Source: Chryseobacterium salipaludis (GTDB lineage: Bacteria > Bacteroidota > Bacteroidia > Flavobacteriales > Weeksellaceae). Taken from it: a stretch of DNA of 64,000 nt. Position 1 is the first letter of the stretch, and every line of letters starts with the position of its first letter. Both the position numbers and the translations under genes were made by a program. A model generated the notes under the pieces. It was given only the letters and a program-made list of their open reading frames with translations. It was not told where the DNA came from and made no database searches. This document shows positions 1,718-36,736 of the stretch, piece by piece. The stretch lies in NCBI RefSeq assembly GCF_022968825.1, contig NZ_JALHKS010000006.1:1-64000 (forward strand). Direction: 5' to 3'.

Positions 1718-4058
1718 CCGCATGGAGATGGACTTCCTCCCGGAACACCAGCCGGAACAAAAAATTGATCTTAAAAAAGTAATCGGCCGCTACCGCAAGA
1801 AATGGCCGTGGTTCCTGGGCTCATTGTTATTATGCTTGGTCGCTGCCTGGCTCTACCTGCGCTATGCACCTGTCATTTATCAGACCCGCGCTTCTGTTTT
1901 TGTGGCCAAAGCTTCCAAGAAAGGAGGCTCCGGCGGCCTCACCGATCTGCAAAACATTTCCCTCACCGGCGGCCTCAGCGAAACCGATATCGAAGACGAA
2001 ATTTCCATGCTCAAAGCAAAGCCGCTTATGCTGCGTGTGGTCAAAGAACTGAACCTCGATATGCAGTTTATTTATGAAGGAAATGTGCGCACCAACGAAC
2101 TCTTTTCCGACGGGCCGCTCGACGGCAAGGTTACCCACCTGCGCGAACCCCGGAAATTTAAACAGCAGGCCTACACGATCCGTCCGGCCAGCAATACCAG
2201 CTTTAAACTCAGTGCCGAAGGAAAGCCGGACCGTATTTTCCGTTATGATGTTCCCGTGCAGGAAGAGTTTGGAACTTTTGTCGTGTCACGACACCCGGCC
2301 GTAGAATTCAAAAGCCCGCTAAAATTAGTAGTGCGCAACGCCGCTTTGGCCGCCGAAGACTTGGAGCGCAGCCTCACCTTGGGCGTACCCGGCAAAAACT
2401 CCGCCGTCATCGAAATGTCGCGCAATGGTGAAAACCCCGATAAATCGGAAGCGGCCCTCAACGAGCTGATCCGCCAGTTCAACCTCGATGCCATTGAAAA
2501 CAAAAACCAGGAAGCCGAAAATACCGCCAAGTTTATCGATGAGCGCCTCGACCTCATTACCCGTGAACTGGGGACCATTGAGAGCCAGAAGGAAGCCTTC
2601 AAACGCTCCAACCAGATCACCGATCTTGAGACCCAGGCCAAACTCTCCGTTGAAAATGCCAACGAAGCCACCAAAAAGATCATGGACGTCGGCACCCAGC
2701 TCGAGATGGTCAACTCTGTCCTGGCCTTTGCCAACTCCGCCAACAATGAACAGCTGCTGCCTTCCAATATGGGCATGCCCGCCGGTCTGGACCAGCTGAT
2801 CTCCGACTATAACCAGCTCGTCCTCACCCGCAACCGCACCCTGCGTCAGGCCACCCCGGCCAACCCCGCCGTCCAGCAGTTCAACCGTGATATTGCCGCT
2901 ACGCGCAATTTGGTGCGCGACAACCTCGTGAAGACCCGCGCTACGTTGCAGAATACCTTGTCTGATTTGCAGGCGCGCGTCACTGAATCCCGTGAAAGCA
3001 TCACCAAATTCCCGGGTCAGGAGCGCCAGTTCCGGAACATTGACCGCCAGCAAAACATTAAGGAAGCGCTTTACCTCTACCTCTTACAGAAACGCGAAGA
3101 GACATCCATCTCTTTGGCTGTTACGACTCCGAAGGCGCGTGTTGTCAATCCGGCCTATACTGTAGCACAGCCGGTCGCTCCTAAAAAACAGATCATCTAT
3201 CTTGGCGGCTTCCTGCTCGGCCTGCTGTTGCCCTTCCTTGGTTTCTATGGCTACTTTGCCTTTGATACCAAAGTGAAAACCAAAAAGGATCTTTCTGATG
3301 CCCTGCCTGATGTGCCCGTCCTGGCGGAGGTACCCACCGTGGGGAAGGATGACTCTGACCTCATGGGTAAAAATGACCTTTCCGTCTATGCTGAAGCCTT
3401 CCGCATCCTGACCGCCAACCTGAAGTTCATGCTCACCAAAATCTCGGGCACCGCGCCGGTCATCCTCTTCACCTCCTCCGTGAAAGGCGAAGGCAAAACC
3501 ACCGTGTCGGTGAACTCCGCGCTCAGCCTGGCCAGTACCAAAAAAGTACTCCTCATCGGCGCCGACCTCCGCAACCCGCAACTGGAACGCTATATTGTTC
3601 CCGGCCCGCAAGGCCTCTCCGATTACCTGGCAGATGCCACCGTCCATACCGATGATATCATTCACCCGTCCGGCCTCACCCCGAATCTGGACACCATCAG
3701 CAGCGGTACCATTCCGCCGAATCCAACCGACCTGCTGGAAGACAGCCGCCTCGCGGACTTGCTCACTGATTTGCGTCAGCGCTATGACTACGTCCTCATC
3801 GACTCCGCCCCGCTCATGATGGTCAGTGATTCCTTCCACATCCTGCGTCATTCCGATGTCCTGGTGTACGTCGTCCGTGCCCGCTACACCGAAAAAGAAC
3901 TGCTCGATTATGCCGGCACCGTCGCCAAAGACGACAACGTTTCCCGCATGGCCCTCGTCCTTAACGATGTCGATAAAGATGAAATGCGCTACGGCTACGG
4001 TGGCAAATACGGCTACGGCTACCACGACGAAACCAAAAAACCCTGGTGGAAATTTTAA
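1704..4058 (+). CDS. Wzc-like polysaccharide co-polymerase / bacterial tyrosine kinase
   Basis: 784 residues. There is an N-terminal Wzz-type domain with a membrane helix at 36-52, a long coiled-coil periplasmic part (about 250-470), a second membrane helix at about 497-520, and a cytoplasmic BY-kinase domain. The kinase shows Walker A SSVKGEGKTT (591-600), a Walker A' segment LLIGADLRNP near 615, and Walker B YVLIDS with D700. The C-terminus carries a tyrosine cluster (YGYGGKYGYGYH), the usual autophosphorylation tail. It should control chain length and export together with the Wza-like protein. Met7 at 1722 is an alternative start just beyond the overlap. Confidence 0.94.
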   Translation: MPSNNRMEMDFLPEHQPEQKIDLKKVIGRYRKKWPWFLGSLLLCLVAAWLYLRYAPVIYQTRASVFVAKASKKGGSGGLTDLQNISLTGGLSETDIEDEISMLKAKPLMLRVVKELNLDMQFIYEGNVRTNELFSDGPLDGKVTHLREPRKFKQQAYTIRPASNTSFKLSAEGKPDRIFRYDVPVQEEFGTFVVSRHPAVEFKSPLKLVVRNAALAAEDLERSLTLGVPGKNSAVIEMSRNGENPDKSEAALNELIRQFNLDAIENKNQEAENTAKFIDERLDLITRELGTIESQKEAFKRSNQITDLETQAKLSVENANEATKKIMDVGTQLEMVNSVLAFANSANNEQLLPSNMGMPAGLDQLISDYNQLVLTRNRTLRQATPANPAVQQFNRDIAATRNLVRDNLVKTRATLQNTLSDLQARVTESRESITKFPGQERQFRNIDRQQNIKEALYLYLLQKREETSISLAVTTPKARVVNPAYTVAQPVAPKKQIIYLGGFLLGLLLPFLGFYGYFAFDTKVKTKKDLSDALPDVPVLAEVPTVGKDDSDLMGKNDLSVYAEAFRILTANLKFMLTKISGTAPVILFTSSVKGEGKTTVSVNSALSLASTKKVLLIGADLRNPQLERYIVPGPQGLSDYLADATVHTDDIIHPSGLTPNLDTISSGTIPPNPTDLLEDSRLADLLTDLRQRYDYVLIDSAPLMMVSDSFHILRHSDVLVYVVRARYTEKELLDYAGTVAKDDNVSRMALVLNDVDKDEMRYGYGGKYGYGYHDETKKPWWKF

Positions 4059-5836: not shown

Positions 5837-7156
5837 ATGACTCACAAAATTGCCGTCATCGGCCTTGGTTATGTAGGCCTTCCCCTTGCAAGGTTGTTTG
5901 CCACAAAATTTCCTGTAGTGGGATTTGACATTAATACCAAAAGAGTAGCCGAACTCAATGCTGGCCACGACGACACCCTTGAAGTATCAGATGAGCTGTT
6001 GCAGTCGGCGCTTGTTGCGGTCAATCCCTTTGCTGATCTAAATGCAGGAGAGGGACTGTATTGCTCTGACAATCTTGACGATATTGCTGATGCTAATATT
6101 TACATTATTACGGTACCTACGCCTGTAGATAAGAACAACAGACCGGTATTGACTCCGCTTATAAAGGCAAGCGAAACCGTAGGACAGGTTATTAAGAAAG
6201 ATGACATCGTCATTTACGAATCTACCGTTTATCCAGGCGCGACGGAGGACGACTGTATTCCTGTTGTTGAGAAGGTAAGCGGGATGACGTATAATGTAGA
6301 CTTTTTTGCAGGATATTCGCCGGAGCGTATTAACCCGGGAGATAAGGAGCATACCGTAGAGAAAATTAAAAAAGTGACCAGTGGTTCCACACCTGAAATC
6401 GGTAAAGTAGTAGATGATCTTTACAGCTCTGTTATAAGTGCCGGCACCCATCTGGCTCCGACGATTAAAGTGGCCGAGGCTGCCAAGGTGATCGAGAATT
6501 CCCAGCGCGACATCAACATCGCTTTTGTCAATGAGTTGGCCAAGATATTCAACCTTATGGACATCGATACCCATGCGGTGCTCGAAGCAGCCGGGACCAA
6601 ATGGAATTTCCTTCCCTTTAAACCGGGCTTGGTAGGCGGTCACTGTATTGGCGTGGACCCGTACTACCTCGCGCAGAAGGCGCAGGAGTATGGCTATCAT
6701 CCGGAAATCATTCTGGCCGGTCGTCGCCTGAATGACTCTATGGGTAAATATGTTGCAGAACAAGTACTAAAGGCCATGATCAGAAAAGGCATTAATCCGT
6801 GTGGCGCTAAAGTGCTAAATTTAGGAATTACCTTTAAGGAAAACTGCCCAGATGTACGAAATACCAAGGCTGTCGATGTAATTCGAAACTTAGAAGCGTA
6901 CGGCTTAGAGGTAACTACATTTGACCCATGGGCGGATCCCGACGAGGTAATGCATGAATATGAGATTATTTCTCATTCACAATTTAAAACGGAGCACTTA
7001 AAACCATCAAGAAAATATGATGTAATCATAATAACAGTCGCGCATGATGCCTTTAGAAAATTAAATTTATTAGAATATCTTAAAGAGATAAATATTATAT
7101 ATGACGTCAAGGGTATTATAGAATCAACGGCTGAGAAAACATCTATAAGATTATAG
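5837..7156 (+). CDS. UDP-N-acetyl-D-galactosamine dehydrogenase, WbpO/TviB-like
   Basis: 439 residues. The N-terminal Rossmann motif is VIGLGYVGLPLA (about 6-17), and the central catalytic motif is GGHCIGVDP with the nucleophile Cys270. The overall length and the start KIAVIGLGYVGLPLARLF match the WbpO/TviB branch, which oxidises UDP-GalNAc (or UDP-GlcNAc) to the uronic acid with NAD. It lies 29 nt after the epimerase. Codon use changes along the gene: the start and end are AT-rich, while about 6480-6740 is distinctly GC-rich, which hints at a mosaic gene. Confidence 0.92.
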   Translation: MTHKIAVIGLGYVGLPLARLFATKFPVVGFDINTKRVAELNAGHDDTLEVSDELLQSALVAVNPFADLNAGEGLYCSDNLDDIADANIYIITVPTPVDKNNRPVLTPLIKASETVGQVIKKDDIVIYESTVYPGATEDDCIPVVEKVSGMTYNVDFFAGYSPERINPGDKEHTVEKIKKVTSGSTPEIGKVVDDLYSSVISAGTHLAPTIKVAEAAKVIENSQRDINIAFVNELAKIFNLMDIDTHAVLEAAGTKWNFLPFKPGLVGGHCIGVDPYYLAQKAQEYGYHPEIILAGRRLNDSMGKYVAEQVLKAMIRKGINPCGAKVLNLGITFKENCPDVRNTKAVDVIRNLEAYGLEVTTFDPWADPDEVMHEYEIISHSQFKTEHLKPSRKYDVIIITVAHDAFRKLNLLEYLKEINIIYDVKGIIESTAEKTSIRL

Positions 7157-19548: not shown

Positions 19549-20172
19549 ATGCCCGATTTGAGTAAAACCTTTCTTTTCAGAATGACTCATATTGAGAACA
19601 TTCCTCACATTCTTCAATATGGCATCACCCATGCAACCTCAGAAAATGCCAACCCCGCTTTTGTTCCGATAGGCGACAGCACTTTAATTAATGCACGGAA
19701 TAACTTTTTACTAAATAATGGCCGACGCTTGGGAGCGTACATTCCGTTTTATCTTGGGGTCAGAACGCCAATGCTGTATGTGGTACAACACGGCTTCAAT
19801 ATGGTAGCACCCACACCAGCTGAAAACATTGTGTATTGTGTAACTTCTGTTCAGAAAATTATTGACTTGGGTTTGAACTATATGTTCACCGACGGGCATG
19901 CCGTGGATCGCTTCAGTTCACAATACACCGCAGCCAATCTTCAGGATATAGATACAATTCTGGACAAGGCAGCCATTAAGGCCAAATATTGGAAAGATGA
20001 ATACGATTTGGACAAAAAACGAAGAAAGGAAGCAGAGTTTTTAGTTGCAGGAGATATTGCACCGCAAGCTATTTTGGGCTTTGTAACTTACAATCAAATA
20101 GCAAAGGATAAAGTTGTTAACTTTGGTGCACAAGAAGCAAAGGTTTACATTGACCCCAATTATTATTTTTAG
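19549..20172 (+). CDS. darT: DarT-type ssDNA thymidine ADP-ribosyltransferase toxin
   Basis: 207 residues, the usual DarT (DUF4433) length. Family landmarks are present: FRMTHIENIPHILQYGI (10-26), the YIPFYLGVRTPMLY segment (64-77) with the conserved Arg, and RRKEAEFLV near 158-166, where Glu163 is the expected catalytic glutamate. DarT uses NAD to ADP-ribosylate thymidine in single-stranded DNA, blocking replication, and acts as a toxin in phage defence. The DarG gene follows 3 nt downstream in the normal toxin-antitoxin arrangement. Confidence 0.95.
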   Translation: MPDLSKTFLFRMTHIENIPHILQYGITHATSENANPAFVPIGDSTLINARNNFLLNNGRRLGAYIPFYLGVRTPMLYVVQHGFNMVAPTPAENIVYCVTSVQKIIDLGLNYMFTDGHAVDRFSSQYTAANLQDIDTILDKAAIKAKYWKDEYDLDKKRRKEAEFLVAGDIAPQAILGFVTYNQIAKDKVVNFGAQEAKVYIDPNYYF

Positions 20173-20175
20173 GAA

Positions 20176-21210
20176 ATGATACACTACAAAACAGGAAACC
20201 TGCTGGACAGCGAAGCAGAAGCATTGGTCAATACCGTGAATACCGTTGGGGTGATGGGTAAAGGAATTGCTTTGCAGTTTAAGAACAGGTTTCCCAACAA
20301 CTTTAAATTGTATGCCAAAGCATGCAAGAACAAGGAACTGAACGTGGGCCAACTGCTGGTAACTGAAGAAGAAGATTTGCTGTCCGGCAAAAAAATCATC
20401 ATCAATTTTCCGACAAAAACCACTTGGCGTCTGCCTTCCGAATACCAGTATATTGAATCAGGCCTCACTGCATTAGTGAAGGTAATTGAGGAGAAAAATA
20501 TTAAATCAATTGCGATTCCGCCTTTGGGTGCAGGCAATGGCGGCCTCGATTGGAACAGGGTAAAGCCGATTTTAGAAAAACAATTGGCAGCAGTTGATAG
20601 TGACATTTACATTTATGAACCAAATGCGGCTATACAGGAAGTGCTGAAAAAAGAGAGAGTGAAGCTCACGCCTGCCCGGGCCATGCTGCTTTCTGTTCTA
20701 TATGAACTGGTTCGAAACGGCGAGTTTGTCTCCGAATTTTCAGCCGAAAAAATTGCGTATTTCCTACAGCGTTTTGGCGCAAAGGAAACCTTTAAGCTGG
20801 AATTTCAGCCTAATTTTTACGGGCCCTATTCAGGCAAAGTAAAACACGTACTATATTATCTGAATGGCAGCTACCTGATGGGCTACAGTTCCAAAGATAA
20901 AAAACCATTTGAGGAACTGAGCTTAATTACTGATACTGAAGCGGAGGTAGAAGCATTTTTAAATAAGCCCGAAAATGCAGTTCACAAAAAAACAGTAGAA
21001 AAAACAAAAGCATTCCTGTCTGGCTATTATTCTCCATTTGGCTTGGAACTGCTGTCAACCATCGACTACATCATTTCTGAGAAGAACACGCGAAATCCTG
21101 AAGCAATTACACGGGAACTGGAAAACTGGAGCGGCCGTAAAAAAACCTTATTTACCAATCCGAAATTTGTCGAGATCGCAATTGATAGTCTGGAGATGCA
21201 TCTTGATTAA
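20176..21210 (+). CDS. darG: DarG-type macrodomain antitoxin
   Basis: 344 residues. The N-terminal macrodomain (about 1-155) shows GNLLDSEAEALVNTVNTVG, GVMGKGIALQF and PPLGAGNGGLDW, the ADP-ribose-binding loops; it should remove ADP-ribose from DNA. The C-terminal part (about 160-344, starting KLTPARAMLLSVLYELVRNG) is the DarT-neutralising domain. Its pairing with the adjacent toxin makes the assignment secure. Confidence 0.95.
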   Translation: MIHYKTGNLLDSEAEALVNTVNTVGVMGKGIALQFKNRFPNNFKLYAKACKNKELNVGQLLVTEEEDLLSGKKIIINFPTKTTWRLPSEYQYIESGLTALVKVIEEKNIKSIAIPPLGAGNGGLDWNRVKPILEKQLAAVDSDIYIYEPNAAIQEVLKKERVKLTPARAMLLSVLYELVRNGEFVSEFSAEKIAYFLQRFGAKETFKLEFQPNFYGPYSGKVKHVLYYLNGSYLMGYSSKDKKPFEELSLITDTEAEVEAFLNKPENAVHKKTVEKTKAFLSGYYSPFGLELLSTIDYIISEKNTRNPEAITRELENWSGRKKTLFTNPKFVEIAIDSLEMHLD

Positions 21211-21748: not shown

Positions 21749-22348
21749 ATGGCAGATATGAGATATGAACTTAAATATACAGAACTGATTTTCGAAATTA
21801 TAAATTCAGAAAGATTTAAAAACGGCTTAGAAATAATTAACACCTCCTATCCCAATTTAAAACAGGAAGCACTAATAAGAAATTTAATCCTTGAGGAATT
21901 AAACAGTCGCTTTCTTTCAGCAGGAATCACTAATCTGAAGGCATTTGCTGAACATCCAAGAGTTAAAGGGACAAGAATAGACTTATCAATTGTAGATGTA
22001 GACACTATCGAAAGCCCTTTTAAGATCGAATTTAAATACCAGTTTTCCAAGGATTGTAACAACATGAAAGATTACTGGAAAGTTGTTGACAGGGATTTCG
22101 AAGTTAGAGTAAGTGATCTGTTTATTTTAATAATATCTGATTGGGATGTTCAGGAAAAGAGTTATTTTGACAGTCAATGGGGAATAACTTCGAATTTGTC
22201 CAGATACGTTTCAAAAAAAACGGATTGGAAAGCAAATATTATTCAGAACTTTAAGAGATTCGAAAAAGCACAACTTAAAGAGTGTGAAACAATATCAGTA
22301 AAAAATCCGTATAGAACTCAATATTATTTTTATCTTCTTTCCAGATAA
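21749..22348 (+). CDS. Candidate PD-(D/E)XK nuclease-like protein
   Basis: 199 residues. An N-terminal helix with Glu (LKQEALIRNLILEELN, 37-52) precedes a strand-turn-strand TRIDLSIVD with Asp78 and KIEFKYQ with Glu94-x-Lys96. That is the order and spacing of a PD-(D/E)XK active site. The rest reads as alternating strands and helices (DLFILIISDWD). The nuclease call is a motif-level inference. The position next to DarTG supports a defence role. It is AT-rich compared with the capsule ends. Confidence 0.55.
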   Translation: MADMRYELKYTELIFEIINSERFKNGLEIINTSYPNLKQEALIRNLILEELNSRFLSAGITNLKAFAEHPRVKGTRIDLSIVDVDTIESPFKIEFKYQFSKDCNNMKDYWKVVDRDFEVRVSDLFILIISDWDVQEKSYFDSQWGITSNLSRYVSKKTDWKANIIQNFKRFEKAQLKECETISVKNPYRTQYYFYLLSR

Positions 22349-22558: not shown

Positions 22559-23719
22559 TCATTCATCAATTAATTGCTCATCTTTCGTTTCACTGTCTTC
22601 GGTGCCATGGCTTTGCTGTTGGGAAGTTTTGTATTCTGCAAAAATTAAACTAAAGAGCACCATAAGTCCAAACATCAGTACTATGACAATCCACCACTTT
22701 AAGATATTAAATATCCATAAATAAGGCAAACACGCAACAATTATAAAAAGTATATTTTCCTTCCGTACCCTTGAAAACTGACCCGATAGTAAATTTTTAA
22801 AAAGCTCGTTTAACAGCACTATAAGTGTCCAACCAAAGAAGACAAAAATAACTTTTCGCAGCCAGGTTGACAGGTAGGGGCGTTCATCAATAAATAATGT
22901 ACTGAATGTTAAAACGATTGCAATGACAGAAAGCGTGTTAATAATTACGGAAAAGCTTTTAGCTCGAACTGTGCTTTCTTTTTTCTTATATATGTAGGAG
23001 AGATTCAGGTTAAGAATTCGATCTCTTTCGAGCACCATATTATCCCCGGGAATATCCCTGACTATAGTTTCATCAGAAGTCTTACTTCGTACATATTTTT
23101 TAACATCCGATAGAACAATGGTCTGCAGCATAAAATTTTCGGAAGATGTGAAATAGCCATCTACTTTTCCAGAATATAAGATAGTATTTTCTCCACCATC
23201 GATGAGAACGTCTGCCACAGTATAAGAATAAGTAAGTGTATCGTCGGTATTGCTGCTATACTGGCCTGTTATCAGTCCTTCCCAATAATTTTCATATTTG
23301 AAAATACCCAAAACCCGAAAGAGGGAGGTCTTTGTAAATCTGTAGAAAAGATACCCAAAAAAAATTGAAATCAGATAAACACATGACGTAAGAAGAATGA
23401 TATCAGCAAATAATTCTTTATCGTAGTCTGGAATTTTGTTATTAGAAAGCTGTGTGAAATTTTGTGAGATCTTGTTGTAGGTCAGATTTTCCAATAGCCG
23501 TAAGCTAAAGACATTTTCAAGCGACCAAAAAATTAATCCGGAAAGGGCCAGCATCAGTACACTTGCCAATACGGTTAATACGGTTCTCTCGAAAAGATTG
23601 CCTCTCTCAAACTCTTTAGAATATTCTTTCCTAAATAAAAATTTCCGGAACAGAAAGCCCGGAAATATAAATATCATTACATAAAGAATAGTGTTTAAGG
23701 CAATATTAAGATCTCCCAT
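22559..23719 (-). CDS. Multi-pass membrane protein, DUF6338-like
   Basis: 386 residues. Two N-terminal helices (about 7-25, 45-70), one at about 108-128, a soluble middle region (about 150-260) with a small beta-barrel look (ADVLIDGGENTILYSGKVDG), then three to four C-terminal helices and a charged tail. This layout resembles the DUF6338 family, whose role is unknown; the match is from memory. The upstream small gene ends 4 nt before its start codon, so the two are likely co-transcribed. Confidence 0.6.
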   Translation of the reverse strand: MGDLNIALNTILYVMIFIFPGFLFRKFLFRKEYSKEFERGNLFERTVLTVLASVLMLALSGLIFWSLENVFSLRLLENLTYNKISQNFTQLSNNKIPDYDKELFADIILLTSCVYLISIFFGYLFYRFTKTSLFRVLGIFKYENYWEGLITGQYSSNTDDTLTYSYTVADVLIDGGENTILYSGKVDGYFTSSENFMLQTIVLSDVKKYVRSKTSDETIVRDIPGDNMVLERDRILNLNLSYIYKKKESTVRAKSFSVIINTLSVIAIVLTFSTLFIDERPYLSTWLRKVIFVFFGWTLIVLLNELFKNLLSGQFSRVRKENILFIIVACLPYLWIFNILKWWIVIVLMFGLMVLFSLIFAEYKTSQQQSHGTEDSETKDEQLIDE

Positions 23720-23723
23720 TGCA

Positions 23724-24077
23724 CTATTTTACTACGATAGTAATTTTTCTATCGGATAGATGAACAGTTTTGCTTTTTTCACCTTTTTTCTTTCTTAACT
23801 CTTCAACTGCAGAATTAATTAGCTGTCTGTCGTTTGGATTTTTAAAATCTTCCCGAAAGTTATTAATCGATCTGTCCTCCGCAGCAGTAACAAGCGTAGT
23901 AAAAAAGGAATTGATAAGATAAAACACATTTGATAAAATAACCATAGCTGTATTTTTTCTGTTAAGCAAATGTAAGAACAAAAACTTATCCACAACCATT
24001 GCACAGTATAAATTTTTGATTATTTTAACAGCTGTCCTAAAAAGTCCCTGCAGATAAAATATTGAATCCTGTGCCAA
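23724..24077 (-). CDS. Small hypothetical protein preceding the membrane protein
   Basis: Up to 117 residues from a TTG at 24077; internal ATGs (for example at MVVDKFLFLHL) give a shorter protein. The C-terminal half is charged (NDRQLINSAVEELRKKKGEK). It ends 4 nt before the membrane-protein start, which argues for a real gene, but the start is uncertain and no family is recognised. Confidence 0.4.
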   Translation of the reverse strand: MAQDSIFYLQGLFRTAVKIIKNLYCAMVVDKFLFLHLLNRKNTAMVILSNVFYLINSFFTTLVTAAEDRSINNFREDFKNPNDRQLINSAVEELRKKKGEKSKTVHLSDRKITIVVK

Positions 24078-24258: not shown

Positions 24259-24858
24259 TTATTCCAACATAATCTCATACCTAATTTTAAGCTGTTTCAT
24301 ACATCCTGAACAAGTTCCACATGCATAGTTGGAAATATGGCATGAATGAGCGATACTGATGAGTTCAAGAGGAACATTATACTTCTGAACTAACTCATGA
24401 CTGTAATAATCCAATGTTGGACACTTTATCTTAATTTTCCCTTCTTGAAAAGATGTCAAATTATTAATCAATTTGTAAAATTCTTTTGTTCCATCAGTAT
24501 GGAATTGATCAGATTTAACCGACGCTAAGTAAAGTTCTGTAATTCCGTCTTTTATTCCTTGCATCGAAGCTAATGTGATCAACAATTGATTTCTAAATGG
24601 CCACCATTCCTCAGATGGGCCAATATCTATATTTTCAGAATTTGCTAATGTGCCTGATCCCAGATGTCTACAATCTACTTTAATAACTTTATGGTTAATC
24701 CCTAACTTCTCGCAGACAAACTTCGAAACATAAATCTCTCTCTCTGCTACAGTTTGGCCGTAATCAATCGTATAGGCCAAGTTAGGTCTCAATTTATAAG
24801 CGAGACAAATTGAGTCTACACCTCCTGATAATAATAACGCTCTTTTTACAGCTTCCAT
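24259..24858 (-). CDS. QueC-like enzyme (7-cyano-7-deazaguanine synthase family)
   Basis: 199 residues. The PP-loop is SGGVDS (11-16), followed by the QueC-type TIDYGQ (30-35), the FRNQ segment (88-91) equivalent to the GRN motif, and a zinc site C173-x6-C180-x2-C183-x2-C186. All key QueC residues are kept. Classical QueC makes preQ0 from carboxy-deazaguanine with ATP and ammonia for tRNA. No other queuosine genes are present here, and QueC homologues also occur in phage-defence systems (Qat, type IV CBASS). It overlaps the upstream kinase/transferase gene by 13 nt, so it belongs to that operon and is probably a specialised homologue. Confidence 0.85.
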   Translation of the reverse strand: MEAVKRALLLSGGVDSICLAYKLRPNLAYTIDYGQTVAEREIYVSKFVCEKLGINHKVIKVDCRHLGSGTLANSENIDIGPSEEWWPFRNQLLITLASMQGIKDGITELYLASVKSDQFHTDGTKEFYKLINNLTSFQEGKIKIKCPTLDYYSHELVQKYNVPLELISIAHSCHISNYACGTCSGCMKQLKIRYEIMLE

Positions 24859-26036
24859 ATAGTATGATATATAGCTGTTGTTAAGTGCTTAAAAATATCC
24901 ACATTTGCCGGCTTTAACATTAGAAGTTTATCATCAGTACAGGTGCGGTGATATGCTACCATCTTTTTACCCTTCGCCATAGAATATCCTGCTTCAATTA
25001 AAGTTCCTGAATCTAAATTGTCTAAAACAAGAAATATTATGTCAGAGTTTTCTATCGCTTCGAGATCTTTTTTAGCAATATTTGCATGATCACCAATTCC
25101 TATGTCATGAAACGGCGAAAATACATTTATTCCAAATGACAAAAAGGCGGATCGAACCTTTTCTATTAAAATCAAGTCAGATAAAGAAAAAAATGGTGAT
25201 GCTATGTATACCTGCATTTTTTCGAGCACCTCATGCTTGTATTCACGATATTTGAAGTTTTCTAATATTGAGGTATCAACGTAGGCTTTCAGATCGCAAT
25301 ATATGGCAGTTGATCTCGATGCGTATAGAGCCGCGTCTTCAATTGAAAGCTTTCTCTCCATCCAGTAATAACCAAAACTTCCTGTGAAAACATCACCTGA
25401 TCCGATCTTATTTACATTATATGTAATGTATGATGGAATGTTAACTATTTTGTCTTCTAAGTATAAGCTGGCACCGTACGGTCCATTCTTTATAATGAAA
25501 GCTGTTACAAGTTCTACCTGGAAAAAATATTTTATAATTTCGTCAATATTATCTGTACCGGCGATCGATTGGGCTTCCTTTTTATTTACTACATAAATCA
25601 GTTCTTCTGCTTTCCCAAACTCACTAAACTTTTCAGGTCTTTCTGCGGTTTGAGGGTCATATACAACTTTTTGTCCCTGTATGGAAAGAGCTGCTTCCAA
25701 CAATCCAAAGACTATAATATTATCTGAGCTTACATTCAGAGTTCTCAATCTTGAAATACACTGTAAACTTGGAATTATTTCTGGTTCATCTAATGAAAAA
25801 CAGTATTTGAATACTATCAGCTCATGATGCTCCTTACAATAAAATGAGAAATTTTTATAAGCTTTTTTATTTTCGTTAAGGTATGTAACGGTTTGACTAT
25901 TTCCTACAGTTGAGTATTTTGTAGGACAGTTGTTCTCTAGTAAGAACTTCGTTGCACGAAATCCGGACCCATATAGTTCAGTTGAAATATCGTCGTAATC
26001 TATTTCTAGATACGTTCCTCCTAATACATTAATCAT
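24846..26036 (-). CDS. PfkB-type kinase fused to nucleoside 2-deoxyribosyltransferase-like domain
   Basis: About 396 residues from the ATG at 26036, which overlaps the preceding stop by 8 nt; an ATG at 26060 would add eight residues. Residues about 1-270 are a PfkB/ribokinase-like domain starting INVLGGTYLEIDYDD and ending with the GSGD anion-hole/catalytic motif near 210. After a linker, MQVYIASPFFSLSDLILIEK begins a nucleoside 2-deoxyribosyltransferase-like domain (about 275-396) with LDNLDSGTLIEAGYSMAKG, where the Glu is the expected nucleophile. The fusion suggests nucleoside phosphorylation or cleavage chemistry. It sits between a small Gly/Ser-rich protein and the QueC-like enzyme. Confidence 0.82.
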   Translation of the reverse strand: MINVLGGTYLEIDYDDISTELYGSGFRATKFLLENNCPTKYSTVGNSQTVTYLNENKKAYKNFSFYCKEHHELIVFKYCFSLDEPEIIPSLQCISRLRTLNVSSDNIIVFGLLEAALSIQGQKVVYDPQTAERPEKFSEFGKAEELIYVVNKKEAQSIAGTDNIDEIIKYFFQVELVTAFIIKNGPYGASLYLEDKIVNIPSYITYNVNKIGSGDVFTGSFGYYWMERKLSIEDAALYASRSTAIYCDLKAYVDTSILENFKYREYKHEVLEKMQVYIASPFFSLSDLILIEKVRSAFLSFGINVFSPFHDIGIGDHANIAKKDLEAIENSDIIFLVLDNLDSGTLIEAGYSMAKGKKMVAYHRTCTDDKLLMLKPANVDIFKHLTTAIYHTIWKL

Positions 26037-26355
26037 TTTGTTTTTTTTGTATGTATACAATACAAGCTGGTGAATTTATGGATTTTATTTCAGCAGTATA
26101 AGACGTGCCATTTTTAATACACTCAATAATATCTACGGTATTCAAATGAAGAATGGTTCCTAGGATTTCACCATTCCGATCTTCCAAAATCAGGGTTTCA
26201 CTACTGGAAAGCATCACCTCTAAAACGTCTCTTACTTGATGCTTTTTGAGAACCATAATATCAATTGAAGAAACAGTCGTTGTCAATGTAGTTTTGTCGC
26301 AATCAAATTTGTTTCGTTGTGGCGCTACATAGCTACCCCCACCAGATCCACTCAT
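26029..26355 (-). CDS. Small Gly/Ser-rich protein of the QueC-like operon
   Basis: 108 residues. The N-terminus is MSGSGGGSYVAPQRNKFDCD, a flexible glycine-rich tail, followed by a compact beta-rich domain (LEVMLSSSETLILEDRNGE, then TSYTAEIKSINSPACIVYIQ). I recognise no enzyme motif. It is translationally coupled to the PfkB fusion. A flexible Gly-rich N-terminus next to a QueC-like enzyme makes it a possible modified partner protein, but this is speculation; after Met removal the first residue would be Ser, not Gly. Confidence 0.7.
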   Translation of the reverse strand: MSGSGGGSYVAPQRNKFDCDKTTLTTTVSSIDIMVLKKHQVRDVLEVMLSSSETLILEDRNGEILGTILHLNTVDIIECIKNGTSYTAEIKSINSPACIVYIQKKQND

Positions 26356-26441
26356 ATTATTTATATAATTAAATTGTGATGACTCAATGTTCAGTTCAGC
26401 AGTTTTATTGCATATGCTGTCAGAATAAAAATGATATATCT

Positions 26442-26750
26442 CTATTCATAATTTTTTCTTCTTATCTTGAATTCTTTCTTGAGGGTTATAATCTCATCTT
26501 GGAGATTCTTTAGTTCAACTGAGCTAAGTTTTTCAAATAATAACATAGGATTTATTTCTAAAAAATTACAGATCTTTATTACGTTGGCGGTAGTGAGGTT
26601 GGCTTCCCCTTTTTCAATTCTACCGATGTGATTTATAGAAAGTTCTATTTCGTTGGCAAGATCTTGTTGAGAAATCTTTTTGCGTAATCGGTTTACGTGG
26701 ATAATAATACCCATCTGTTTCAGTACATCAATTGGATTCCATTTATACAT
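26442..26750 (-). CDS. XRE-family helix-turn-helix regulator
   Basis: 102 residues. The HTH_3 domain is clear: GIIIHVNRLRKKISQQDLAN, then SINHIGRIEKGEANLTTANV, with a C-terminal coiled coil (VELKNLQDEIITLKKEFKIR). It reads in the same direction as the small protein, PfkB fusion and QueC-like genes, 86 nt upstream. It is the likely regulator of the operon. Palindromes lie just upstream of its start. Confidence 0.85.
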   Translation of the reverse strand: MYKWNPIDVLKQMGIIIHVNRLRKKISQQDLANEIELSINHIGRIEKGEANLTTANVIKICNFLEINPMLLFEKLSSVELKNLQDEIITLKKEFKIRRKNYE

Positions 26751-26785: not shown

Positions 26786-26799
26786 ACACATATATGTGT
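26786..26799. promoter_or_regulatory. Candidate operator palindrome upstream of the XRE gene
   Basis: ACACATATATGTGT is a perfect 14-bp palindrome 35 nt before the XRE start codon. Slightly offset ATCAAC (26782-26787) and GTTGAT (26801-26806) arms flank it. The size and location suit a dimeric XRE repressor site. Confidence 0.45.
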
Positions 26800-35191: not shown

Positions 35192-35248
35192 AATAAAAAT
35201 GTTAAATTGGTAAATGCCTACTCTGGTCAGGGTTTTCGGCTCTCCCCT

Positions 35249-36736
35249 TTATCGTATTTTATCCGTGATAATTCGCTCCAGCCGGTACCGTACCAGCTCA
35301 TCGCCCGACAGGATAAAAAAGTGACTGCCCGTCACCAACATCTGGCGCATTTGGCTCTTTCCGCGGTGTTGCACATACATACTGCCGGCATACCCCGCCG
35401 GCGCGGTGGAATAGAGGTCCACCACTGCATTTTTTCGCCACATCTCCGAAGTTTCATAGCGACCGCGCAGGCCCGATTCTACGAACAGTAAGCCTCCGGA
35501 CGCTTCCATCGTACGGTTGGACACCATCGGCGGCGCAGCCAGCTTTCGCCTGCCGCCCGCCAGCGTGGTCACCTCCAGTTTTGCCTGCGACATCGTGTCA
35601 ATCGTTTTGAGCTGTAGTTGATTTTCCAACTCTGTATTCACCTGCAGAATCGGATTCTTATAATAGAAAAAGTAATAAACCCTATTTTGCCTGTCGTCAT
35701 ACACCAGCTGTCCGTCTGCGTCAAAGCCACCGTCTCTTTTCTTCGTAAGAAGATCGTCATTGATGACCACCGGCTGACGCATGCCGGGGTTCAGTACTGC
35801 CAGCGCTGTTTTTCCGCTGGCCTTGTCTTCTACCCTCAACATGAATTGGTCGCCCGGCAGATGGGTCAGTTGATCAAAATACACCTCTTGATGGCTGATT
35901 TCTCGCAACAACAAGTCTCGTGGAAGGTTATTCGCTTTGTAAATAACGGGTACGGTGCCATCAAACCCATATAGCTCCCCATGCTCAACCCGATATTGCA
36001 GATTGCGAAAGATATGATAGGTTTCCGGCCTCACCTCCAGCGTGTCAATACCACCTAACCCAAAGTCGATGGACAGCAGCCGGAAAGGGGTGCTGGGATT
36101 CCCTAAATAAAGTTTGCTCCCGTCGTGGCCCGCAAAGTAATAAGAATCGAAACCGAGGTCCAGTGTTTTCTCTTCCGTGATGGGATGTGGTGGAAAAATA
36201 CGTATGAAATTGTTTTCATTTCTAGTCATATGTTCAGATGTTCTTGCAAGCAGAAACACTCCTGCAAGGGTGGCCAGCCCCGTAAGTCCAAGCTGAAAGT
36301 AAAAAGAAGACGGCTTGGATTGTTTTTCGGGACTCATCAGGTAAAAACCTGCTCCGGCAAATAGGGTGGCTGCACTGTTAAAAATAAGGTGTTCAGTCCA
36401 GCCCATTTTTTCGAGAATACCACCGCAGGAGCAGGGAATAAAATAACTGTAATTCAGGATCAGCCAGACATAACCTGTAAAGGCTGTCATCAACACAAAA
36501 GACATCAGCAAACCAATCTTCCGCATCATCGGAAAAATAAGTAATGCCGAAACGGCCAGCTCAATGAAAATGACGCCATAAGAAATGAATCCGGTGTACG
36601 GACTGACCAGTGGCGACACGGCCAGCTGTTGTTGGAAATCCTCGAAACCTTTTATTTTACTCACAGCAGTATAACAGAATAAGAGAATGAAGAAACAGGC
36701 GGCTGCATAAGGCAGATATTGAGTTGCTTTTTTCAT
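35249..36736 (-). CDS. MauE/DoxX-like redox membrane protein with C-terminal sensor-like domain
   Basis: 495 residues from the ATG at 36736 (MKKATQYLPY); a longer frame from 36790 would overlap the neighbouring gene. The N-terminal third has four to five membrane helices with the MauE-type pattern (AVSKIKGFEDFQQQL) and a CSCG Cys pair in NYSYFIPCSCGGILEKMG. The C-terminal about 300 residues are soluble and beta-rich, perhaps a propeller. MauE proteins are tied to disulfide formation in exported partners. Here the partners could be the Cys-containing small proteins of the same operon. Confidence 0.8.
   Translation of the reverse strand: MKKATQYLPYAAACFFILLFCYTAVSKIKGFEDFQQQLAVSPLVSPYTGFISYGVIFIELAVSALLIFPMMRKIGLLMSFVLMTAFTGYVWLILNYSYFIPCSCGGILEKMGWTEHLIFNSAATLFAGAGFYLMSPEKQSKPSSFYFQLGLTGLATLAGVFLLARTSEHMTRNENNFIRIFPPHPITEEKTLDLGFDSYYFAGHDGSKLYLGNPSTPFRLLSIDFGLGGIDTLEVRPETYHIFRNLQYRVEHGELYGFDGTVPVIYKANNLPRDLLLREISHQEVYFDQLTHLPGDQFMLRVEDKASGKTALAVLNPGMRQPVVINDDLLTKKRDGGFDADGQLVYDDRQNRVYYFFYYKNPILQVNTELENQLQLKTIDTMSQAKLEVTTLAGGRRKLAAPPMVSNRTMEASGGLLFVESGLRGRYETSEMWRKNAVVDLYSTAPAGYAGSMYVQHRGKSQMRQMLVTGSHFFILSGDELVRYRLERIITDKIR

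Follow-up and report, generated by a model that had tools for sequence, protein, structure and literature searches.

What would an enzyme of the QueC family do when its gene shares an operon with a kinase-deoxyribosyltransferase fusion and a small protein with a Gly/Ser-rich start? The question is raised by four minus-strand open reading frames (ORFs), all located in the window analysed here, a 64,000-nucleotide (nt) stretch of Chryseobacterium salipaludis (contig NZ_JALHKS010000006.1, positions 1 to 64,000). They encode an XRE-family regulator, a small protein, a PfkB-like kinase fused to a nucleoside 2-deoxyribosyltransferase-like (NDT) domain, and a QueC-like protein. A sequence-only reading of this DNA had described four minus-strand genes, with overlaps of 8 and 13 nt and an intact PP-loop and zinc site, all borne out by the ORFs and Pfam matches. 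It had also proposed, among other options, that a modified nucleobase is attached in a defence setting. Comparison with related loci supports this proposal and sharpens it: the small protein becomes the likely acceptor, and the QueC-like protein a Cap9-like enzyme that would perform the ligation. The three genes after the XRE gene are probably a patchily distributed, anti-phage, protein-modification cassette, and by analogy the operon is best read as a third QueC-based protein-deazaguanylation cassette, one with a HIRAN-like acceptor.

A linked gene set with a patchy distribution

The fusion, PfkB-NDT, matches Pfam PF05014 (3.4e-14) and PfkB (1.8e-9). Its ORF extends to a TTG at 26060; homologues begin near MI(I/N)VxGG, which makes the ATG at 26036 the probable start, giving 396 residues (24846-26036, minus strand) and an 8-nt overlap with the gene of the 108-residue small protein (26029-26355, minus strand), whose homologues adjoin PfkB-NDT in related loci. 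The gene of the 199-residue QueC-like protein (24259-24858, minus strand; Pfam PF06508, 1.1e-19) overlaps that of PfkB-NDT by 13 nt. The G+C content is 33.8% in the operon versus 44.8% in the whole window.

A tblastn search of plasmids with the 108-residue protein alone gave no match, so PfkB-NDT was taken as the search anchor. Through it, 102 loci were collected: 80 from a named collection (the best 80 of at least 379 relatives, among at least 593 stretches), 6 from Bacteroidota, 8 from plasmids (39 records found, 8 opened) and 8 from a viral collection, where 8 of 80 loci (L099-L106) had a full-length match and entered the set, the other 72 being partial matches. Some of the 102 are near-identical, with 94 distinct small proteins among 97. 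Counting genes within 300 nt on the same strand as adjacent, the small gene adjoins PfkB-NDT in 98 of the 102 loci, and a QueC gene lies within 3 kb in 97; the genes thus stay together, and the lack of joint conservation that the sequence-only reading had named as refuting it is not seen. The small protein was not found in four of the 102, namely three loci of a TIR type, described below, and L064, where the PfkB frame is shortened. QueC was not found in five, three of a PurA type, also described below, and two at contig ends.

PfkB-NDT matches occur in 7 of 395 Bacteroidota genomes, with none in G281, a genome of the same genus listed among the 395. A small-protein profile, built with those seven proteins included, found only the seven PfkB-NDT genomes among 390 Bacteroidota, each time beside PfkB-NDT. 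The distribution of the cassette is patchy. In a phage collection, 61 records match QueC, the 20 listed at 25-31% identity.

The earlier statement that the gene set matched no named system did not hold for two of its members. The QueC/PfkB-PF05014 pair is QueC-family Cluster 4 of Libby et al. 2026 (PMC13329287), where purine salvage is suggested for it; judged by sequence, the window pair belongs to this cluster, sharing the signature CH(x)5CxxCxGCxK, the PfkB-NDT fusion in the operon and a frequent HTH gene with the cluster as that paper's main text presents it. A term search of the main text returned no mention of a small protein, hypothetical, HIRAN, TIR or adenylosuccinate. Among the matches listed in the open literature, no publication besides PMC13329287 dealt with the gene set (HIRAN, PfkB/NDT defence).

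The operon had also been placed in a defence island. Within the window this rests on a complete DarT-DarG pair (19549-21210) that reads toward the cassette, the only known defence neighbour among the ten ORFs at 19.5-26.8 kb taken in by the profile scans (Pfam, PADLOC, NCBIfam); the wider evidence comes from the related loci. There, 118 flank ORFs match 261 PADLOC families at 1e-10 and 118 control ORFs match 15, a contrast that gives a direction and no ratio, being overstated by redundant PADLOC families and taxon-unmatched controls. The flank families among the matches listed include GajA, pAgo, CBASS cyclase, QatA, JetD and AbiEii. Controls came from 20 chosen stretches in 13 system-bearing genomes, and one family was matched six times; 120 ORFs had been picked on each side, two PurA genes being taken off the cases and two controls off to match.

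The QueC-like enzyme and its candidate acceptor

The QueC-like protein, presumably an ATP-dependent ligase, keeps the PP-loop SGGVDS and carries the Cluster 4 cysteine signature as CHISNYACGTCSGCMK. With 63.2 bits on the NCBIfam model of canonical QueC (TIGR00364, cut-off 150.3) it is by sequence not a canonical QueC, and the grouping with housekeeping queuosine orthologues that the sequence-only reading had weighed is not indicated. When a profile of 13 relatives was compared with the Protein Data Bank (PDB), the best match was Cap9 (9nto, 4e-15, in two stretches), with QueC 2pg3 at 1.4e-13. An AlphaFold2 model (predicted local distance difference test, pLDDT, 94.6) aligned in VIA-align with Cap9 at Z 22.0 (root-mean-square deviation, rmsd, 2.1 over 174 residues), with QueC at 19.3 and 18.1, and with QatC at 15.1. 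By profile and structural Z the enzyme is nearest Cap9, on measures that are not unanimous.

Across 93 QueC-like sequences, the window included, YGQ, PxRN, the base-recognising (Watson-Crick) Asp and the zinc cysteines are each present in 93/93. The PP-loop is kept throughout, save for Glu in place of Asp in three sequences and one Gly-to-Ser change. In the cysteine signature all four Cys and the Lys are invariant (93/93), and the His and the Gly before the last Cys are each found in 91/93. The canonical base-recognition motif YPDC is absent; H-x-D-G stands in its place, with His in 88/93 and Asp in 93/93. As to the YGQ(x)6E motif of Cluster 4, an invariant Glu follows YGQ by five residues, not six, in an alignment of 13 sequences.

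The small protein gave no match at E 0.1 in Pfam (including HIRAN), PADLOC or NCBIfam. Structure prediction, which had been suggested as a check, returned an AlphaFold2 model (pLDDT 89.7) in which a low-confidence tail of ~20 residues precedes a beta-rich domain. The tail is modelled as a coil, with mean pLDDT 60 for residues 1-10 and 72 for residues 11-20; residues 1-22 (MSGSGGGS..., 26290-26355, minus strand) are the proposed acceptor end. The domain (residues 20-108, 26032-26298, minus strand) aligned in VIA-align with 3k2y at Z 12.4 and with HLTF HIRAN at Z 8.9-9.5 (rmsd 2.9-3.1 over 87 residues), and Foldseek gave HIRAN-type matches at 1.8e-4 and 3.7e-3. The protein is thus predicted to be a HIRAN-like domain behind a flexible Gly/Ser tail. 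HIRAN domains bind DNA 3' ends, and structure titles among the HIRAN-type matches include DNA complexes; on the strength of the model, the small protein may bind DNA as well.

A small second residue and a flexible Gly/Ser tail, the features of a deazaguanylation-type partner, are found in the small protein. In QueC-bearing loci, 91 of 93 small proteins begin M-[S/G/T/C]-G, a count to be read knowing that starts were picked with the motif in mind and that 50 of the 93 are longest-ORF starts. Where the chosen start is the longest-ORF start, the motif is present in 48/50. Neighbouring ORFs have it in 30/508 with the same start chooser and in 8/472 by first ATG. The two proteins lacking it belong to L039, which encodes MSGSGG in a different frame, and to L089, a locus that is both diverged and double. 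Two further starts were seen: in L014, a haloarchaeal small protein (6339-6998) apparently has two domain copies and begins MCGGG, and in the diverged plasmid locus L240 an unannotated ORF (3257-3661), noticed by eye, begins MGSTGSGS and precedes an NDT gene and a diverged QueC.

We propose that Met1 of the 108-residue protein would be removed, exposing Ser2-Gly3. The Cap9-like QueC would adenylate the carboxylate of 7-carboxy-7-deazaguanine (CDG), a product of host QueD/QueE, and would join the activated CDG to the Ser2 amine, as Cap9 does on the CD-NTase of type IV CBASS. The HIRAN-like carrier may then bring the tagged tail to DNA ends or damaged DNA. PfkB-NDT, with both active sites kept, would act on or read the protein-borne base, its NDT domain in the role of the TGT-like Cap10 and its kinase possibly phosphorylating a sugar placed on the base. 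Within this scheme, we consider it fairly likely that the QueC-like enzyme acylates the N-terminus of the HIRAN-like protein with a CDG-like acid.

As for the base, genes for a QueD-family (PTPS) protein and a QueE-like protein are both present in the window genome; the QueE-like one scores 75 bits against a TIGR04508 cut-off of 240, with its QueE motifs judged by eye. Elsewhere in this genome PF06508 matched only twice, weakly and in part, within longer frames (23.5 and 22.7 bits). Of 21 genomes tested (18 of the QueC type, 3 of the PurA type), 20 had a QueE-like match and one was over the cut-off; CDG is likely available to the host. CDG supply was dropped as a discriminating test, since QueE-like genes occur in family genomes without QueC.

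Several observations weigh against the proposed acylation, among them the motif-guided choice of starts and the overstated flank contrast already mentioned. QueE-like genes are present in all nine genomes tested from the window organism's family (G000, G281, G012, G095, G210, G265, G277, G308 and G331), eight of which have no QueC of any kind; a canonical QueC was found in none of the nine. The window protein by itself scores 63 bits on the canonical TIGR00364 versus 55 on the PADLOC QueC model (3.2e-15), and Foldseek ranks QueC 2pg3 (3.9e-10) slightly above Cap9 (9.6e-10). Position 2 is Ser in the window and Gly in the CD-NTase and QatB partners. Finally, the Tyr that stacks on the base in QueC and Cap9, as described in PMC13279940, is replaced by His in 88/93 sequences, and the base may therefore differ from CDG.

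Variant loci, accessory genes and competing explanations

Gene swaps in related loci bear on these possibilities. In three loci (L077, L093, L098) a PurA-like gene replaces QueC; that of L093 matches PF00709 at 1.7e-41, and the other two align with it at 46-47% identity. Their small proteins begin MSKRK, MSKRN and MKGGN, the motif being absent in 3/3. The PurA type requires two changes on the tree. A PurA-like gene in the QueC position is possibly a purine-protein ligase. No second PurA-type locus was found in 194 genomes of the Hymenobacter order. Among plasmids, PurA-like matches numbered 34 records, of which five were opened, three of these unannotated; in the annotated L205 and L208 the two genes before purA match no PfkB-NDT, small-protein, QueC, Ogg or SagB profile.

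The TIR variant comprises five loci from plasmids and the viral collection (L015, L016, L106, L242 and L243), each with a PfkB-NDT homologue and a QueC gene. In 5/5 a TIR protein with an MGG start follows QueC and is, in place of the window's small protein, the acceptor candidate; the start in L106 is an inner Met of a longer ORF, and L242 and L243 show the same annotated order with MGGG starts. The small gene was not found in L015, L016 or L106, and L242/L243 were not scanned for it. In L016, profiles identified a TIR-TGT fusion, with a ThsB-like TIR protein, and an Ogg-type gene; its QueC matches the PADLOC QueC model at 1.7e-28. TIR-type loci also carry an Ogg-like or HhH gene.

Four accessory groups recur in the 102 loci: Ogg-like genes (84 loci), a group located after QueC (76), D12 methyltransferases (41) and dGTPases (15). 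Type IV CBASS likewise has an Ogg-like gene, and L008 matches the PADLOC OGG model. L099 and L100 have the three-gene core without any of the four groups, as does the window; the L099 core lies beside phage CI and CII genes, a setting that we take to be like that of P2-like prophages.

All 25 scanned members of the group after QueC match a SagB-family peptide dehydrogenase model (best 1.2e-18); the single member displayed in full scores under the model cut-off. PDB matches are CyaGox (6.7e-19), BmdC and McbC. Where this SagB-like gene is present, position 2 of the small protein is Ser in 71, Thr in 3 and Gly in 0 of 74 scored loci; in QueC loci without it, some of these negatives being weakened by short contigs, there are 11 Ser, 1 Cys and 5 Gly. 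These counts leave out L039, which has a frameshift, and L089, which is diverged and has two copies; for L096 the first Met was taken as the start by hand. The Ser/Thr-SagB association has a chance probability of 1.3e-4, with no correction for the tree, on which the Gly2 tips lie in four separate places. A second QueC-like ORF was seen in L046 (3040-3609), where a SagB-like gene stands beside the second rather than the first copy.

These associations allow an extended scheme. QueC would acylate the Ser2 amine with CDG and re-adenylate the amide as in preQ0 synthesis; the Ser2 hydroxyl would close an oxazoline, which the SagB-like dehydrogenase would oxidise to an oxazole where present. NDT would add deoxyribose to the protein-borne base and PfkB would phosphorylate it, yielding a nucleotide-tagged HIRAN-like protein that would be brought to DNA 3' ends. 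As a whole this sequence of steps is rather improbable, and the 11 Ser2 loci that also lack the SagB-like gene count against it. At E 0.01 nothing in the window genome matches SagB, so the window product would end at the oxazoline or amide. No publication joining SagB with deazaguanine appeared among the matches listed in the open literature.

For the later half of the mechanism, the main alternative is that NDT-PfkB is a toxic effector and the QueC-modified HIRAN-like protein its sensor or inhibitor, which is compatible with the ligation step; we give this a real, if minor, chance. NDT-like genes are found among retron genes in PMC12548924, which cites a paper on NAD+-hydrolysing filaments of Retron-Eco1. 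The dGTPase group of 15/102 loci also favours an effector. So does the NDT domain itself, whose scored Asp/Glu positions are kept in the 96 main sequences (Asp350 in 95) and in 3/3 of the PurA type, and lost in 3/3 TIR-type sequences examined, where the TIR domain could take over. We assume functional roles for these positions. Against an effector, the kinase GxGD is kept in all sequences, TIR-type included, even without the NDT positions, and the TGT domain of the TIR-type L016 would equally fit base handling. NDT and TGT look like alternatives for that task, because TIR-type loci lose the NDT positions and L016 has the TIR-TGT fusion.

Unlikely, in our judgement, is that the QueC-like enzyme adds another acid, or modifies a residue other than the N-terminal one, with no deazaguanine conjugate formed. 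The His in place of the stacking Tyr speaks for this, and QatC shows that base-recognition residues can change within the family (PMC13279940). The Watson-Crick Asp, invariant in 93/93, speaks against it; QatC differs here, with Thr at both places.

Purine or nucleoside salvage, in which the QueC-like enzyme, NDT and PfkB would act on free small molecules with the small protein as regulator or scaffold, seems improbable. Free nucleosides are common substrates of the PfkB and NDT families, which counts in its favour. It is also the published suggestion for Cluster 4, in the main text of PMC13329287. Salvage fits poorly with presence in 7/395 Bacteroidota genomes, the low-G+C operon and the defence-rich flanks, and with an N-terminal motif that is absent in the three QueC-replaced loci, as well as with the TIR variant.

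The XRE-family regulator (102 residues, 26442-26750, minus strand; Pfam HTH_3, 5.7e-10), encoded by the first gene of the operon, lies outside the conserved core because it has matches (E 0.01) in only 5/102 related loci. Upstream of it, a perfect 14-nt palindrome, ACACATATATGTGT (26786-26799, no strand), occurs once in the window versus 0.03 expected and is a candidate operator. A toxin-antitoxin or addiction module under this regulator is very improbable: the protein resembles antitoxin-type regulators at a score below cut-off and the operon is compact, but the regulator's absence from the core speaks against it, and enzymes with active-site residues kept throughout would be unusual for such a module.

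Neighbourhood and known systems

Between the DarT-DarG pair and the cassette, a 199-residue ORF (21749-22348) has a D...ExK-like stretch, seen by eye and suggestive of a nuclease fold, and no Pfam match. A 386-residue ORF (22559-23719) has the look of a membrane protein, with a weak DUF6338 match, and another ORF, at most 117 residues long (23724-24077), comes before it; considered as effector genes, the two were rejected, with no match at E 0.01 in the 102 loci. A DUF805b RNA (Rfam RF02914, 41.2 bits) lies at 35215-35249.

How does a cassette with the proposed protein deazaguanylation compare with known systems? In type IV CBASS, Cap9 attaches a deazaguanine to the N-terminus of the CD-NTase (PMC11996544; details via PMC13279940). 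Common to both, on these sources, are a Cap9-like QueC with ATP, base-Asp and zinc sites, and a partner with a short Gly/Ser-rich N-terminus. The cassette differs in its HIRAN-like acceptor, in NDT-PfkB for TGT, in Ser2 for Gly2 and in His for the stacking Tyr, and neither a CD-NTase nor a TGT-like Cap10 was found among the ten scanned window ORFs. With Qat, as PMC13279940 presents it, the cassette shares a QueC-family enzyme and a partner with a disordered N-terminal tail and a conserved motif (MGTS in QatB). It differs in that QatB is helical and QatC carries extensions, with Thr/Thr at its base site. The QatA, QatB and QatD models had no match among the ten ORFs, and a term search of PMC13279940 in the sections covered returned no mention of PfkB or HIRAN.

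So far, one system is reported to deazaguanylate a protein, and a second has been proposed to do so. If our reading is true, there is a third lineage, spread over several bacterial phyla and haloarchaea, whose acceptor is not the same. Protein deazaguanylation would then be a general modification in which both the acceptor (CD-NTase, QatB, HIRAN-like protein or TIR protein) and the base enzymes can be exchanged. A published orphan cluster would gain an acceptor and a testable chemistry, and the associations with PurA and SagB hint at bonds between base and protein other than the amide.

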